Source: Perognathus longimembris pacificus (lineage: Eukaryota > Chordata > Mammalia > Rodentia > Heteromyidae). Taken from it: 64,000 nt of DNA. Of this stretch, positions 2,773 through 60,527 are shown piece after piece. The DNA lies in contig NC_063171.1 in NCBI RefSeq assembly GCF_023159225.1, positions 15,451,142 to 15,515,141 of the forward strand. The letters run 5' to 3'. How positions within the stretch are numbered: the first letter of the stretch is position 1; every line of letters starts with the position of its first letter. Below the pieces are notes generated by a model. That model did no database searches. It had not been told where the DNA came from and saw nothing but the letters and a program-made list of their open reading frames with translations. Position numbers and translations under genes: made by a program.

Positions 2773-4474
2773 AAACATTCCCTGCATTTTCTAAGACAAC
2801 AATGGAATAAAATTAGAGCTCAACTCAAACAGCCATCACAGAAAATCCTACAGTTCATGGAGACTAAACAACACACTGCTGAACCATGAGTGGGTCATTG
2901 AAGAAATTTAATCGAAATTCAAATATTTATGGAACTGAACCAAGATGAGGACACAAAGTACCAACTCCTTTGGGTCACAGCAAATGCAGTACCCAGAGGG
3001 AAATTTATCTCTCTGAATGCATAGAACAACAAACTGGAGAAATAGCAACTAAATAATTTAGGGAAGCACCTTAATTTCCTTGAAAGAGAGCAACAAGCCA
3101 AACCCAAAGTCAATAGACGGAAGCAAATAATTAAAATCAAACCAGAATTAAATGAATTAGAGACAAAAAAAAATCAAAAGAATAAAAAAACAAAGAATTG
3201 GTTCTTTGAAAAAATCGAGACAATAGACAGACCCCTAGCAAACCTGACTAAAAAACAAAGGCAGCACACTCAAACAAATAAGATAAGAGAGGAAACAGGT
3301 AACATCTCCACAGAAACAACTAAAATTCAGACCATAATAAGGGACTATTTTGCAAACCTTTATGCCAATAAAATCGAGAACTTGGAAGAAATGGATGATT
3401 TTCTAGAAAAAATTCATATCCCCAAACTCAACCATGAAGACTTAAACCTTCTAAACAGACCCATATCCAGTATTGAAATAGAAAATGCAACAAGTGATCT
3501 CCCAGCCAAGAAAAACCCAGGTCAAGACGGATTCACAGCAGAATTCTACAAGGCCTTCAAAACAGAACTCACACCAATATTTCTCAAACTCTTCAATGAA
3601 ACTGAAAGAGAACGTTCACTACCAGGCACATTCTATGAAGCCACTATAACCCTCATCCCAAAACCAGGCAGGGACTCATCATGGAAAGAGGACTATAGAC
3701 TGATTTTCCTGATGAATATAGACTCAAAAATTATCAGCAAAATTCTGGCCAATCGACTTCAACAGGTCATCAAAAAAATACATCACGATCAAAGTGGATC
3801 CATCCCAGGGATGGAAAGTTGGTTCAATATATGCAAGTCAATTAATGTAATCCACCACATCAACCAGAGCAAGTTAAAGAACCACATGGTTATAGCACTC
3901 GATGCGGAGAAAGCGTTTGATAAAATCCAGCACCCATTTATGCTAAAAGCCCTGGAAAAACTGGGATTCCAAGGAACATTCCTGAATATAATCAAGGCAG
4001 TTTATGACAAACCAACAGCAAGCATAACTCTAAATAGTGAAAAACTAAAGCCATTCCCTTTAAAATCAGGAACAAGACAGGGATGTCCACTCTCTCCCCT
4101 TCTCTTCAACATAGTACTAGAATTCCTAGCCAGAGAAATTAGGCAAGAAGAAAATATAAAGGGGATCCAAATAGGAAAAGATAAAGTTAAACTATCTCTC
4201 TTTGCAGATGACATGATCCTATGCATAAAGAACCCCACAGACTCTACCCCCAAGCTACTAGAGCTGATCCAAAACGTTGGCAAAGTTGCAGGATATAAAA
4301 TAAACCCTCAAAAATCAACGGACTTTCTCTATGCTAACGAACCGAAGACCGAGGCTGAAATCACGAAAGCAACTCTTTTTGCAATATCCCCCCAAAACAT
4401 AAAATACCTAGGAATAACCTTAACCAAAGAAGTGAAAGACCTCTACAATGAGAAACTTAAAAACATGAAAAATG

Positions 4475-4666
4475 GGGGCTGGGGATATGGCCTAGTGGCA
4501 AGAGAGCTTGCCTCGTATACATGAGGCCCTGGGTTTGATTCCCCAGCACCACATATACAGAAAACGGCCAGAAGTGGCGCTGTGGCTCAAGTGGCAGAGT
4601 GCTAGCCTTGAGCAAAAGGAAGCCAGGGACAGTGCCCAGGCCCTGAGTCCAAGGCCCAGGATTGGC

Positions 4667-4712
<46 letters not shown>
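4475..4712 (+). mobile_element. Dimeric ID-type SINE in reverse transcriptase region
   Basis: Same two-unit design as the copy at 2549. It ends in about 50 uninterrupted adenines (4668-4717), part of which overlaps the duplication. A perfect 16-bp TSD, AAAAACATGAAAAATG, lies at 4459-4474 and 4713-4728. The perfect TSD and long pure tail indicate a recent insertion into an already decayed L1. Confidence 0.95.
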
Positions 4713-4718
<6 letters not shown>

Positions 4719-11285: not shown

Positions 11286-11407
11286 CTATCTTCTCTTCTT
11301 TACTCATCTCTTTTCCCCTCCCTTCCTTTCCTCTCCCCTCCCTTTCCTTCCTCTTCCCTCTTTTCCTCCATTCTCTCCCACCCTTTCCTTTCCTTTCTAT
11401 TTTCCTT
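11286..11407. repeat. Pyrimidine-rich tract
   Basis: Interrupted CCCTTTCCTT-type sequence, almost pure C/T on the plus strand. It adjoins the A/G-rich tail side of the minus-strand ID element, so it probably grew from that tail. Confidence 0.75.
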
Positions 11408-11483
11408 CTAGAACTGAGGACTGAACTCAGGGCCTTATGCTTGCCAGGGAAATGCTATTCCGTTGAGCTAAATCCTCAACCCC
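11408..11483 (-). mobile_element. ID element (monomeric, BC1-like)
   Basis: The reverse complement begins GGGGTTGAGGATTTAGCTCA and contains AAGGCCCTGAGTTCAGTCCTCA. This is the layout of the rodent ID/BC1 tRNA-Ala-derived SINE, with A box TTAGCTCA and a mutated B box. It differs from the dimeric SINEs by lacking a second unit. Pyrimidine-rich sequence flanks it on both sides. Confidence 0.82.
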
Positions 11484-11592
11484 TTCCCTTTCCTTTCCTT
11501 TTCTTTCCCTTCTTACATCCTTTCTTCTTCTATTCTTCTTCGTCCTCCTCCTTCCTCCTTTTCTGTCTTCCTACTTTCTTTTTTCCTTAGCG
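11484..11592. repeat. Pyrimidine-rich tract
   Basis: CTTTCC/TTCTTC-type sequence on the 5' side of the minus-strand ID element. Cause unknown; possibly a pre-existing tract into which the ID inserted. Confidence 0.65.
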
Positions 11593-15600: not shown

Positions 15601-15616
15601 AAAAGAGTAAGCCTGA

Positions 15617-15826
15617 GGGCTGGGGATATGGCCTAGTGGCAAGAGAGCTTGCCTCCTATACATGAGGCCCTGGGTTGGATTCCCCAGCACCACATATACA
15701 GAAAACGGCCAGAAGTGGCGCTGTGGCTCAAGTGGCAGAGTGCTAGCCTTGAGCAAAAGGAAGCCAGGGACAGTGCTCAGGCCCTGAGTCCAAGGCCCAG
15801 GACTGGCCGAAAAAAAAAAAAAAAAA
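15617..15826 (+). mobile_element. Dimeric ID-type SINE
   Basis: Complete two-unit copy with an A tail. A perfect TSD, AAAAGAGTAAGCCTGA, lies at 15601-15616 and 15827-15842. A recent insertion. Confidence 0.95.
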
Positions 15827-15842
15827 AAAGAGTAAGCCTGAA

Positions 15843-16221: not shown

Positions 16222-16264
<43 letters not shown>
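16222..16264. repeat. (GA)n microsatellite
   Basis: About 21 uninterrupted GA units. Confidence 0.97.
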
Positions 16265-18704: not shown

Positions 18705-18860
18705 ATTTATTATTTATTTTTATTTTTATTGTCAAGGTGATAAACACAGGGGTTACAGTTTCATGTGTTAGGGAGTGAGTACATTTCTTATCAAACTTGT
18801 TATCTCCTTCCTTATATTTCTCCCACTATTCCTCCTCCTCAATTCCATCTCCTTCTCCCC
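18705..18860 (-). mobile_element. Old L1 3'-end fragment
   Basis: TTTTTATTGTCAAGGTGATA, GGGGTTACAGTTTCATG, GAGTACATTTCTTATC, then a C-rich block. Confidence 0.75.
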
Positions 18861-19242
18861 GGCACCACACGGGAAGTTTGGACTTGTGCTAACTAAAAGT
18901 GCTCTGAGTAGTTACATTAATATTATTCCAGATAATAAGGGAAAACCTTTCAGCATTTGTCATTCTGCATGATGTTAATTCTGTGATTAGTCATATAAAA
19001 TGTACACTACAGTAATGAGTGTATAGTTCCTGTAAGATTCTGAGGACCTAATACAAAAAAATGTTGAAATAAGAAATTCTTTCAAATACCTTCCCTGCAT
19101 CTATTAAGTGATCATAATGCTTTCATTTATTCTGTTGAGTCATGCTTACAGAATTTCATATATTTAACCATTGACATCTTCCTTGGATGAATGACGTAGG
19201 TGAATACCTCTTGCTCATAAATATTCTTTTTATTGTGCTGTT
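18861..19242. other. Unassigned sequence
   Basis: Nothing recognised. Confidence 0.5.
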
Positions 19243-25145: not shown

Positions 25146-25191
<46 letters not shown>

Positions 25192-26309: not shown

Positions 26310-26388
26310 CTTTCTTTTACTTTCTTCTTTTTCCTTCCTCCCTTCCTTCCTCCCTTCCTCCCTTCCACCCTCCCTCCCTCCCTCCCTC

Positions 26389-26483
<95 letters not shown>

Positions 26484-26580
26484 CTTTTTTCTTCTTTCCT
26501 TTCTTTGCTTTCTTGCTTGCTTGCTTTCTATCTTTCCTTATTCCTTGCTTCACTCCTTCCTCTTTCTCTCTTCTTGCCTT
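26310..26580. repeat. Pyrimidine tract with pure (CTTT)n core
   Basis: CCTT/CCCT-type sequence, then about 23 CTTT units (26389-26482), then CTTG/CTTT variants. Minus-strand open frames across it (Lys/Glu/Arg repeats) are artefacts of the repeat. Confidence 0.95.
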
Positions 26581-35936: not shown

Positions 35937-36081
35937 CGATTAGCTAGACTGCATGTAGCTCATGCCTGTAATTCTAGCTAGTCATGAAGCTGAGATCTGA
36001 ATATCGTGGTTTGAAGCCAGCCCAGACAGAAAAATACTGTGAGATTCTTATCTCCAATTAACCACTCAAAAACTGGAAGTA
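35937..36081 (+). mobile_element. 7SL/ID composite SINE, left part
   Basis: The head reads ATGTAGCTCATGCCTGTAAT, then TTATCTCCAATTAACCACTC and AAAACTGGAAGT, where the SINE sequence stops. Its right part appears at 36702-36775, so about 620 bp (L1 fragment plus GGA tract) sits inside the SINE. Confidence 0.82.
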
Positions 36082-36234
36082 AACTTGAGGAGAAGGGAAG
36101 GTGGGAGAGATATGCCTAGGAGAAAATGAAGAAGAGGGTGACACTGTTTAAAAAGAAATGAAGAAATGTGCTCCATACCGCCATACCTGACTTACATAAC
36201 AGTAACCCCTCTGTATATCACCTTTACAATTAAC
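36082..36234 (+). mobile_element. Old L1 3'-end fragment inside SINE
   Basis: Purine-rich block (GAGAAGGGAAGGTGGGAGAG), CCTGACTTACATAACAGTAA, CTCTGTATATCACCTTTACA. It ends exactly where the poly(A) tail would begin and is replaced there by the GGA tract. Confidence 0.78.
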
Positions 36235-36701
36235 GGAGGAGGAGGAGGAGGAGGAGGAGGAGGAGGAGGAGGAGGAGGAGGAGGAGGAGGAGGAGGAGGA
36301 GGAGGAGGAGGAGGAGGAGGAGGAGGAGGAGGAGGAGGAGGAGGAGGAGGAGGAGGAGGAGGAGGAGGAGGAGGAGGAGGAGGAGGAGGAGGAGGAGGAG
36401 GAGGAGGAGGAGGAGGAGGAGGAGGAGGAGGAGGAGGAGGAGGAGGAGGAGGAGGAGGAGGAGGAGGAGGAGGAGGAGGAGGAGGAGGAGGAGGAGGAGG
36501 AGGAGGAGGAGGAGGAGGAGGAGGAGGAGGAGGAGGAGGAGGAGGAGGAGGAGGAGGAGGAGGAGGAGGAGGAGGAGGAGGAGGAGGAGGAGGAGGAGGA
36601 GGAGGAGGAGGAGGAGGAGGAGGAGGAGGAGGAGGAGGAGGAGGAGGAGGAGGAGGAGGAGGAGGAGGAGGAGGAGGAGGAGGAGGAGGAGGAGGAGGAG
36701 G
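36235..36701. repeat. Giant perfect (GGA)n tract, about 155 units
   Basis: 467 bases of GGA with no interruption visible on either strand. The plus strand is pure purine and the minus strand pure pyrimidine. Open frames across it (poly-Gly, and on the minus strand poly-Ser, poly-Pro and poly-Leu) are consequences of the repeat. It lies at the tail position of an old L1 fragment, a common seeding site for microsatellites. Such DNA is known to favour triplex (H-DNA) and G-rich tetraplex forms. Exact length may be an assembly or polymorphism issue. Confidence 0.97.
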
Positions 36702-36775
36702 TTGAGTGCTTCCCTTGAGCAAAATAGCACAGTAACAGAGCCCAGACACTGAGTTCAAGTTCAGAGACCAGGGGG
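36702..36775 (+). mobile_element. 7SL/ID composite SINE, right part
   Basis: GTTGAGTGCTTCCCTTGAGC and GACACTGAGTTCAAGTTCAG match the SINE tail, completing the copy begun at 35937. A (GA)n run follows. Confidence 0.78.
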
Positions 36776-36778
36776 TAA

Positions 36779-36801
36779 AGGAGAGAGAGAGAGAGAGAGA
36801 G
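36779..36801. repeat. (GA)n microsatellite
   Basis: About 11 GA units at the SINE's end. Confidence 0.93.
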
Positions 36802-37196
36802 ATTAGCCAGACTTTTAGATAAAGTGTGAAATAAATATGTCAAAATCTTTCTGCATAGTAAGATAATATGATATATTTGAAAAAATAAAAGAAATGTTTA
36901 ATAATTACATTTGTATATACTACAAGTCTTATGATGTACAAAATAAAAGCACTGAATTTATAATTAAGTATGGCTGCCTATATATTAATAATATTGTCAC
37001 ATATATCTTGCTCTATGGTTATCTAATGCTTATGAAGTTCATATATTATAAAAGGACTCAAAAACATTATTCATGAGAAAATTCTCAAAAGCCTTCTTCT
37101 CATTATATCTTGTCATATTTCTAGCACCTGACTTACCATCAGGTTGATCTGCATTTCGTATCTCATCTGGAAGGTTCTTTAACATTTGGTGAAATG
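36802..37196. other. Unassigned AT-rich sequence
   Basis: Nothing recognised. Confidence 0.5.
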
Positions 37197-43815: not shown

Positions 43816-45470
43816 AAAAAATTAGTTGAGCAGCTTTGCTGACAGCAGACCTGTGTTCCAATTTCAGCCTTGTTTAACCATGCAATTATCATCAATGCAT
43901 CTGCTTCTCTTTTCCCATTGACACTAGTGGAGTAAGCTTTGCTTCTTTTTCAGTCTATTCACTTTAATAGTATTCTTGGAACCATGCCAATTTGCTAATA
44001 GGAATAAAAAGAAAGTTCAGCACAACACTTGTACTTCAGAGGATATATTTTATAAAATGTAATAAACACAAACTCTTTGAATGTTAAATCTCTATCATCT
44101 GTGTGTATATGTGTGTGGTGTGTAACCTTTTGCCTTTTGCTCCAAAGAATTGGCCTTTCTCCTTATCTCCATTTCCTTTCTGTCAAATTGCTTACAGCTC
44201 TGATGTTAAAAATAATAATTGTTATTTTTAGTAGCTTCATTTTCTATGAATTACATTGAAAATAAAACTAAATCACAACTACAGAGACTCACAAATTTAT
44301 TTCAAATTTTAAAAATATTACTAAGAAATCTGTGTGTAGGTTTTTCTCACATCACTCAATTCCTTTGAATAATTTACATCTTTGCTCTCTCATAACTCCA
44401 CTAGGATATTGCTTTATTTCAGTATGATAAATTCACCCGAAGCTTATGGCTGACTGTACTTACAGAGATACAAAAACAGTTGTATGTATACAAGTCTTAA
44501 TTTTATGATGTAACTAAAGTTTTTTTTTTTAGCAGACATGTCTATTTTTAGCCATCCAATTTCTTGTACTGTTTAGATGTGAAATCATCACGAAGCAGAT
44601 ATTTCCCAAGGACAAATATTGCCTTAAGAAGAATTTAGCTGACATGTATCTATGAACTATCTGTAGCATTTCCATTTCCAAAGGTACATTACACAAATCT
44701 CCAAGGCTGCATGCTCTCCAAGGCACATTAGTAAATATCTGCAAGGTTTCCATTTTCCTGACAGAAACAATTACAAGTGCCATGCAAGAATAATTTCACA
44801 CAGAGTTGAGGCAGCTATCAGAACTCTCATAGGTAACAGTGGCAAATGTTTATGCAAATGTTATTTAGCTTTTCACCTTAACTTAAGAAATCAGGTTGCT
44901 GAATTTAGTGCCTTTCTTGTATTGTCAGTGTAGCTCTAAAGAAAGAGAAGGATAATTTTTTAAGGGTGAAAGTATGATTATGTTCACTTTAAACCTATAT
45001 GTTTGAAAAAAATACTGTGGTGTGTTTTCACTAGGGAATTCTTGTATTTCCTCTTTCATTTCTGTGAGGAAAGAAGGAAAGCCATCTGGCTAGTTCAAAC
45101 ATATGAAGTTGTGCTTCTATATATAAATGGTGGCATATGGAAGGGGAGGCTTGCTGTTCTGTGTGTTCCTGGAAATACTTAGAGATTCATTTCCCCTCAG
45201 AAATGTACATGATATGCTTCATCCAACACAATACATGAGATCCCTGAAAATATTACTAAACATGGGAAGTTGCTTCCATGCAGCAATTTAAAAAAAATCT
45301 TGATAGTTCAAGTGTATATTTTGCTTATTTAAAGTGCTTCCTTTTAAAGATAGATATATATGTACTTTCATACTCTGCTTCCCAGGACCTGCTGAAATTA
45401 TACTTAAAACAAAAGTAGGCAAATATAGAAGTGATAAAGAATAATCACGGTAGAAGGTATAATAAATGTC
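43816..45470. other. Unassigned sequence
   Basis: About 1.65 kb without recognised repeats or gene structure. Confidence 0.5.
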
Positions 45471-45471
45471 C

Positions 45472-45700
45472 ATGATGTTGGTGGCTTATACCTACAATAC
45501 TAGCTACTCAAGAGTCTGAGAAATGAAGGTCACAGTTTGAGGTAAGCCAACACAGGAAATTTCAGTGAGAGCCTTTATCTCCAATTAATCACAAAAAAGC
45601 TATAGTGGCTCAAGTGATGGGTGCCACCCCTCAGTAAAAAAGCTAAAGTACAGCACTACAACACTCAGACCCTGAGATCAAGCTCCAATACTGGCAGAAG
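45472..45700 (+). mobile_element. 7SL/ID composite SINE
   Basis: GTTGGTGGCTTATACCTACA head, TTTATCTCCAATTAATCAC join, TAGTGGCTCAAGTGATGGGT tail start, CAGACCCTGAGATCAAGCTC tail end. Moderately diverged. Confidence 0.82.
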
Positions 45701-45896
45701 ATGAAGAAAGAGGAGAAGGAGGAAGGGGAAGAGTAAGAGGAAGAAGAGAACAAAGACAAAGGAGGAGGAAAAAAGGAAGAAGAAGATGGGGAGGACAGGG
45801 GAGAGAAGGAAGAGGGGGAGGAAAAAGAAGAAGAAGAAGAAGAGGAGGAGGAGGAGGAGGAGGAGAAAGAGGAGGAAGAAGAAGAAGAAAAAAAGA
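45701..45896. repeat. Purine-only tract at SINE tail
   Basis: GAA/GGA/GAAG mixture, nearly 200 bp with almost no pyrimidine on the plus strand, starting at the SINE tail. The long minus-strand frame across it (Pro/Leu/Ser-rich) is an artefact. Confidence 0.93.
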
Positions 45897-46255
45897 GTTA
45901 ATCTTTAGACAGATCTTTGCTGTATGGAGACCCATCAGATGAGTAGAAAGGACCATTCTCCAGACAGAAACCAAACAAAAAAGACTTGCATCTTGAAACA
46001 GATGGTCAAGATATGGCAAAATCATTCCAATATCACACAACATAAAGTACACTTATATTCCTGTTGCTCTGCATATTGATACCTCTGTACAGGTCAGAAA
46101 ATGTAAAATTTCTCCAGGGTATTTGAACTGGATAGAGAGGTTGTGAGATTTTTGTCTCTCACTCAGTTGTAGATCCCACATCCTTTCTAACTTTTCAGTC
46201 AAACTCCAGGGCTCAGTAACTGAGTTTTCAATACATGAACTCTAATAGCAGATGA
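45897..46255. other. Unassigned sequence
   Basis: Nothing recognised. Confidence 0.5.
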
Positions 46256-48389: not shown

Positions 48390-48478
48390 AATTTTAATTT
48401 TGTTGTAAAGTTTGATGTACAGAGGGTTTGCAGTTACATATATAAGGTAATGAGTACATTGCTTTTCTTTCATTTCTT
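48390..48478 (-). mobile_element. Old L1 3' end, left part of split copy
   Basis: TGTTGTAAAGTTTGATGTAC, GGGTTTGCAGTTACATATAT, AATGAGTACATTGC. The continuation lies at 49085 (GAGTACATTTCTTGTTG), so younger insertions split this copy. Confidence 0.72.
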
Positions 48479-48484
48479 TTTTAT

Positions 48485-48970
48485 TTTTTTTTAATTTTTA
48501 TTGTCAAACTGATGTACAGAGAGGTTACAGTATCATACGTTAGGCATTGGATACATTTCTTTTTTTTCAATTTTTTATTATCAAACTGATGTACAGAGAG
48601 GTTACAGTTTCATACGTTAGGCATTGGATATATTTCTTGTACTGTAATGTTTGTTACCTCCTCCCTCATTCCCCCCTCTCCCCTCCTCCTTTCCCTTTCC
48701 GCCTCCCCCATGAGTTGTTCAGTTCATTTACACCAAACAGTTTTGCAAGTATTGCTTTTGTAGTCGTTTGTCTATTTATCCTGTGTCTCTCGATTTTGGT
48801 ATTCCCTTTTAGTTTCTTAGTTCTAATACCAGATGTACTCCAATGTACTCAGATATAATACAGTGATGATGCAGGTACACCATAGGAAGGGGATACAAGA
48901 AGATCATCAATAATGGAAGCTACGGTTACACATAGCATGTTGACAGTAGTTACAACAGTGATGTAACAAT
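48485..48970 (-). mobile_element. Young L1 3'UTR with duplicated 3' end
   Basis: 48485-48560 gives the first 76 bp of the antisense 3' end (to GGATACATTTCTT). 48560-48970 starts again from the tail (TTTTTTATTATCAAACTGATG) and runs on through the 3'UTR to ACAGTAGTTACAACAGTG. Either two successive insertions or a local duplication. Confidence 0.85.

Positions 48971-60449: not shown

Positions 60450-60527
<78 letters not shown>
60450..60527. repeat. Compound (CA)n-(GA)n microsatellite at SINE tail
   Basis: About 18 CA units then about 20 GA units, directly at the SINE end. Confidence 0.96.

Follow-up and report, generated by a model that had tools for sequence, protein, structure and literature searches.

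The question raised by this locus is how an unusually long and pure GGA repeat came to stand within nested retroelement debris. The window, i.e. the whole 64,000-nucleotide stretch of DNA that was analysed, was inspected by direct reading and with an exact script, and both identified a perfect (GGA)155GG array of 467 bp, every base of which fits the GGA unit. Tandem Repeats Finder yielded 155.7 copies with 100% matches, no indels and a score of 934. All three approaches recovered the uninterrupted tract of the original prediction at exactly its coordinates. As also claimed there, the array is far longer than the other tracts, being about five times the length of the runner-up among perfect tracts with units of 1–6 bp in the window, a (TCTT)n stretch of 95 bp at 26389–26483. 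This stretch forms part of a long TTCC/TCTT pyrimidine block (26320–26561) with no retroelement end within 30 bp. Only one further GGA run of at least six units was returned by the exact script (22 bp, 45844–45865), and no other all-purine or all-pyrimidine run in the window exceeds 139 bp, against 467 bp for the array. Chance cannot be the source of (GGA)155GG. The features of the locus and of a comparison element are listed in Table 1.

Table 1. Coordinates of the GGA array, the elements of the surrounding nest and a comparison SINE (positions within the window).
Feature	Position	Strand	Basis or remark
Probable target-site duplication of the whole nest, 5' copy, 13 bp	35938..35950	+	GATTAGCTAGACT; 12/13 identical to 36801–36813
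Dimeric SINE, left half and first bases of right half	35943..36090	+	BLAST and alignment
Old 5'-truncated L1 fragment, part of 3' UTR and L1 3' terminus ATCACCTTTACAATTAAC	36091..36234	+	BLAST, alignment
Perfect (GGA)155GG array	36235..36701	+	Stands where the L1 poly(A) tail and the target duplication to its right would be expected
Rest of the dimeric SINE's right half	36702..36780	+	BLAST matches, alignment
Short (GA)n tail of the dimeric SINE	36781..36802	+	Sequence
Probable target-site duplication, 3' copy	36801..36813	+	GATTAGCCAGACT
Comparison SINE of the same kind, mixed purine tail block with (GAA)5 next to (GGA)7	45470..45889	+	Sequence, alignment

The predicted nest of a transposon within a SINE was borne out in outline, with an L1 3' fragment lying between the two parts of a split dimeric SINE. 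The left half of the SINE, which we take to be 7SL/B1-like, gave BLAST matches at nine other places in the window (71–82% identity), and the remnant of the right half aligned over 58 bp with the corresponding halves of two young SINEs, at 4597 (79%) and 15738 (78%). The SINE breakpoint to the left of the L1 falls between about 36080 and 36090, and the 5' edge of the L1 fragment is uncertain by about 10 bp. This fragment was identified as L1 because its last 36–48 bp match eight other L1 3' ends in the window at 79–86% (BLAST), together with a weaker alignment of the longer fragment, which shares 92 of 138 sites with the reverse-strand L1 end at 18720–18880; its values against nine other compared stretches were 44–71%. 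The L1 ends used for comparison were located by BLAST; a fuzzy pattern scan gave only five exact ends. The nest is probably bracketed by a 13-bp duplication, the 5' copy of which overlaps with its 3' part the first bases of the SINE (start at about 35943). An equal duplication score was reached by 9 of 1500 random pairs of 46-bp stretches, so that the duplication is suggestive, not decisive.

The surrounding DNA can be assigned to a mammal because an L1 ORF2 lies nearby. A frame at 3382–4524 contains a reverse transcriptase domain (PF00078, E 1.5e-43; L1 ORF2) and another at 1876–2382 an endonuclease-family domain (PF03372, E 1.6e-7). A search with the ORF2 frame gave 6575 relatives; of the best 120, every entry naming an organism was a mammal, with identities of at most 69% among the matches listed. 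Two very similar young dimeric SINEs were noted at 4475–4717 and 15615–15830, one of them with a perfect A50 tail and inserted in an L1 ORF2 region; the pair points to a recently active family. By eye, their left monomer looks ID-like, and the right monomer is common to the older 7SL-like dimers. As a lead only, they may resemble IDL-Geo, a SINE type known from kangaroo rats, pocket mice and gophers in which a tRNA-Ala-like (ID) left monomer is joined to a Geo right monomer. An SP-D-Geo element is named in the available part of a beaver paper (PMC5335264). A 32-base SINE core pattern was found at no locus in viral_contigs and genome_contigs (viruses and prokaryotes), and Rfam gave no match in the window at gathering scores. 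Also noted was a tandem pair of the L1 3' terminus at 48480–48638 (77-bp unit, 2.1 copies, 92% matches), which with a third L1 end at 48396 represents stacked or tandem L1 tails. A protein reading of the array was rejected: the four listed open reading frames through it (poly-Gly, poly-Ser, poly-Pro and poly-Leu) are a by-product of a GGA unit that contains no stop codon in any frame, and do not represent a gene.

At its left edge, the array starts one base (C) beyond ACAATTAA of the L1 3' end, the terminus reading CTTTACAATTAAC, i.e. TTAAC, with GGA immediately next. It was therefore correctly placed at the L1 tail position by the original prediction: the L1 extends to 36234, the repeat begins at 36235, and the purines lie on the L1 strand. 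At its right edge, the final GG is also readable as SINE (GGTTGAGTGC versus GGTAGAGTGC). The array stands where the L1 tail and duplication would be, and it is a microsatellite at a retroelement 3' end, a known kind of repeat, here unusually long and pure. With 155 units and no interruption in the assembled sequence, it also has the long unbroken tract of an expandable triplet repeat, and instability is a reasonable expectation, judged from one assembled copy. No A-run or non-GGA unit was found within the 467 bp, and neither edge shows an A-run or a GAA unit; no tail remnant or intermediate motif by which descent from poly(A) could be demonstrated was thus found. Inspection of the alignment revealed no clear target duplication of the inner L1 insertion, and 7–17 SINE bases, depending on the placement of the left breakpoint, are apparently missing at the L1/array site, so the junction could have arisen in another way.

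The age of the tract was approached through the divergence of the nest. Compared with a consensus of the other copies, the left half of the focal SINE departs at 25 of 137 sites (18%, K2P 0.215) and the right half at 29 of 82 (35%), figures that are rough, the consensus having been built from nine copies of two SINE types. At the lower SINE rate, a 467-bp sequence as old as the SINE should have gathered about 85–100 changes, against none observed, and the 95% bound on the age of an unpurged array is 3–4% of the SINE age. Accordingly, the pure tract either arose long after the nest or has been kept pure by slippage. As slippage can remove interruptions and consensus making can hide them, recent homogenisation accounts for the tract as well as recent formation does. 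Of the predicted recent expansion, the youth of the pure tract relative to the nest (0/467 versus 25/137) stands, although loss of interruptions through slippage or consensus making could also explain the purity.

The best explanation of the array, to which we assign a probability of roughly 0.7, is that the A-rich tail of the L1 drifted through purine repeats to GGA, followed by expansion through slippage. The old L1 3' fragment would have inserted into the older dimeric SINE, bringing an A-rich tail, which A-to-G changes would have converted into a mixed purine repeat. A GGA stretch within it may then have grown by replication slippage, possibly aided by the GGA/TCC strands folding into quadruplexes or triplexes, and would have overrun the entire tail and the right-hand target duplication. 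The path would thus lead from A through GAA to GGA, with slippage as its motor. Such an origin is supported by the array adjoining the L1 3' end with nothing separating it from the interrupted SINE, and by its purines lying on the tail strand, as those of a tail descendant should. Against it count the array edges, free of any A-run or GAA, which leave position as the sole ground from which we infer tail ancestry.

Other tails in the window have also turned into repeats, namely those of SINEs at 25146 and 51088 (TG/AC) and the 195-bp GAA/GGA mixture of the comparison SINE at 45695–45889, where 203 bases (45695–45897) comprise 106 A, 90 G and 7 others. The last is plausible as an earlier or intermediate stage on the way to a pure GGA array. 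Association with tails was assessed for 18 perfect tracts of at least 24 bp, merged into 15 loci, or 13 without homopolymers. Three of these 13, the array included, begin within 30 bp of an L1 or SINE 3' end (expected 0.29, P 0.003), and two of 12 after removal of the array locus (expected 0.27, P 0.03); with homopolymers, the count was five of 15 (expected 0.34), reached in none of 20,000 random placements. By this test, the remaining 10 of the 13 have no such end. Many repeats, those at 16223, 20080, 38775 and 26389 for example, lack an element end within 30 bp. For this count, 35 of 41 BLAST-derived ends were used, with six rows of an internal ID-left piece dropped, and nine forward-strand ends were shifted by eye by 2–23 bp to the start of the tail; the counted matches lie within 30 bp unshifted too. 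Repeats noticed by eye beside old elements at 45695 and 60451, and an impure block at 11312, fall outside the count. At 60451–60527, (AC)n is directly followed by (AG)n at the apparent tail of an old SINE, and at 11290–11560, on the reverse strand, an apparent ID-type element is flanked on both sides by purine-rich low-complexity DNA. By-eye reading found a run of at least five A within the next 30 bases at 17 of 18 other L1 ends (exception, 51691), so L1 tails in this window do not as a rule turn into microsatellites, a further point against the explanation.

The main rival, though unlikely, places the seed outside the tail. Purine sequence at the L1 5' junction (CTTGAGGAGAAGGG, 36084–36097), which insertion would have copied next to the tail as a target duplication, or the SINE's own GTGGTAGAG would have expanded leftwards and displaced the tail. 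Such a seed would supply the right-hand target duplication that is otherwise missing, and it agrees with GAGGAG at the left L1 junction and with a right array edge reading GAGGAGGTTGAG. Yet the breakpoint on the left can be placed only to within about 10 bp, GAGGAG may belong to the L1 3' UTR, and the same slippage is required, the seed alone being different. A purine stretch of the L1 3' UTR was set aside as source, as it lies some 95–145 bp upstream, at the opposite end of the fragment. An error of assembly or consensus, by which a shorter or interrupted array was lengthened or cleaned, appears quite improbable. Assembly of pure arrays this long is difficult, and interruptions can vanish when a consensus is made. 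GGA-rich alleles of FXN are reported to resist ordinary PCR (PMC13158230, in its available part). However, the two flanks are parts of a single SINE whose ends carry a probable duplication, so the locus itself is coherent, and an array of uncertain length would remain even so.

Maintenance by selection, as a regulatory or structural element acting through quadruplex or triplex formation, is very hard to credit, and the structural properties of the array bear on it directly. The array is a perfect 467-bp mirror repeat with 39 non-overlapping two-tier G4 motifs, which speak for this explanation, and no three-tier ones. Its mean G4Hunter score of 1.34 is non-specific because 1011 25-bp windows elsewhere also reach the cut-off of 1.2 in absolute value. 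Both the purine mirror of H-DNA and the repeated G2N1G2N1G2N1G2 of a GGA quadruplex are present, as sequence potential only. In the available part of PMC6749722, d(GGA)4 and d(GGA)8 reportedly form tetrad:heptad quadruplexes, with four units per fold and the same repeat unit as here, and GGA repeats in promoters such as that of c-MYB are reported as quadruplex-forming regulators. That work concerned oligonucleotides and promoters, whereas our array is known from sequence alone; the predicted capacity for triplexes and tetraplexes accordingly holds in principle. Set against selection, the array sits amid nested retroelement debris, and recent slippage accounts for its purity. A Pfam search of 10 of the 62 stop-to-stop frames (at least 75 aa, 10.6–64 kb, outside masked repeats) gave no match at E 0.1, a weak test that is still compatible with an intron. 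Most likely, the array is a functionless, expandable microsatellite.

Retroelement tails have long been described as sources of microsatellites (PMC7027126 and PMC1634856, both as far as available). The array belongs to a known class of retroelement-tail expansions, which the original prediction did not name, and this membership makes it less surprising. Microsatellites in carnivore SINEs share with it an A-rich retroelement tail as birthplace, and by the accessible account in PMC1634856 those in tails are shorter than others, a point against the tail origin, since it gives no reason to expect 155 units. The mean length of the carnivore arrays ranges from about 10 units for tail-borne tetramers to 14 for dimers of the poly-Y region; A, AAAG, AAAT and AAAAT are singled out as tail motifs, and AG arises in the poly-Y region (PMC1634856). 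Going by that account, such tails do not usually give rise to 155 units of GGA. Among the titles listed by open-access literature searches around, but not exactly on, this topic, none concerned pure (GGA)n at an L1 tail.

Two human systems come closer. At RFC1 (CANVAS), an expanded (AAGGG)n takes the place of the (AAAAG)11 that lies at an AluSx3 3' end, as stated in the available part of PMC6612533, so that there, as proposed here, an A-rich tail repeat gives way to an expanded purine motif richer in G. The RFC1 repeat is a pentamer at an Alu, intronic in a known gene, whereas ours is a trimer at an L1 3' end. In Friedreich ataxia, composite GAA–GGA alleles of FXN, seated in an AluSx, carry 22–342 GGA triplets in total according to the portion of PMC13158230 available. 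Like the array, they hold GGA triplets in a retroelement-seated purine repeat, and 155 units lie within the reported GGA content. That range, however, is the total per allele within a larger GAA array in a gene, whereas a single pure GGA tract was found here, with no GAA units beside it, at an L1 3' end inside a SINE with no known gene or phenotype. The array may act like an FXN-type composite but falls outside that class. It is possible, if rather doubtful, that the locus is the end point of a motif takeover in which GGA wholly replaced A and GAA, consuming the tail, the right-hand target duplication and some SINE bases, and passed 150 pure units outside any known gene or disease context, so that GGA without GAA could drive large expansion. 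Should the length prove an artefact or invariant, the locus would be one more retroelement-tail microsatellite, set apart by nothing but its length and purity. A real and variable length, on the other hand, would allow the expansion of pure GGA to be followed in retroelement debris and would make the locus a useful companion to the FXN alleles, in which conventional PCR commonly overlooks the GGA tracts according to the same available portion of PMC13158230.
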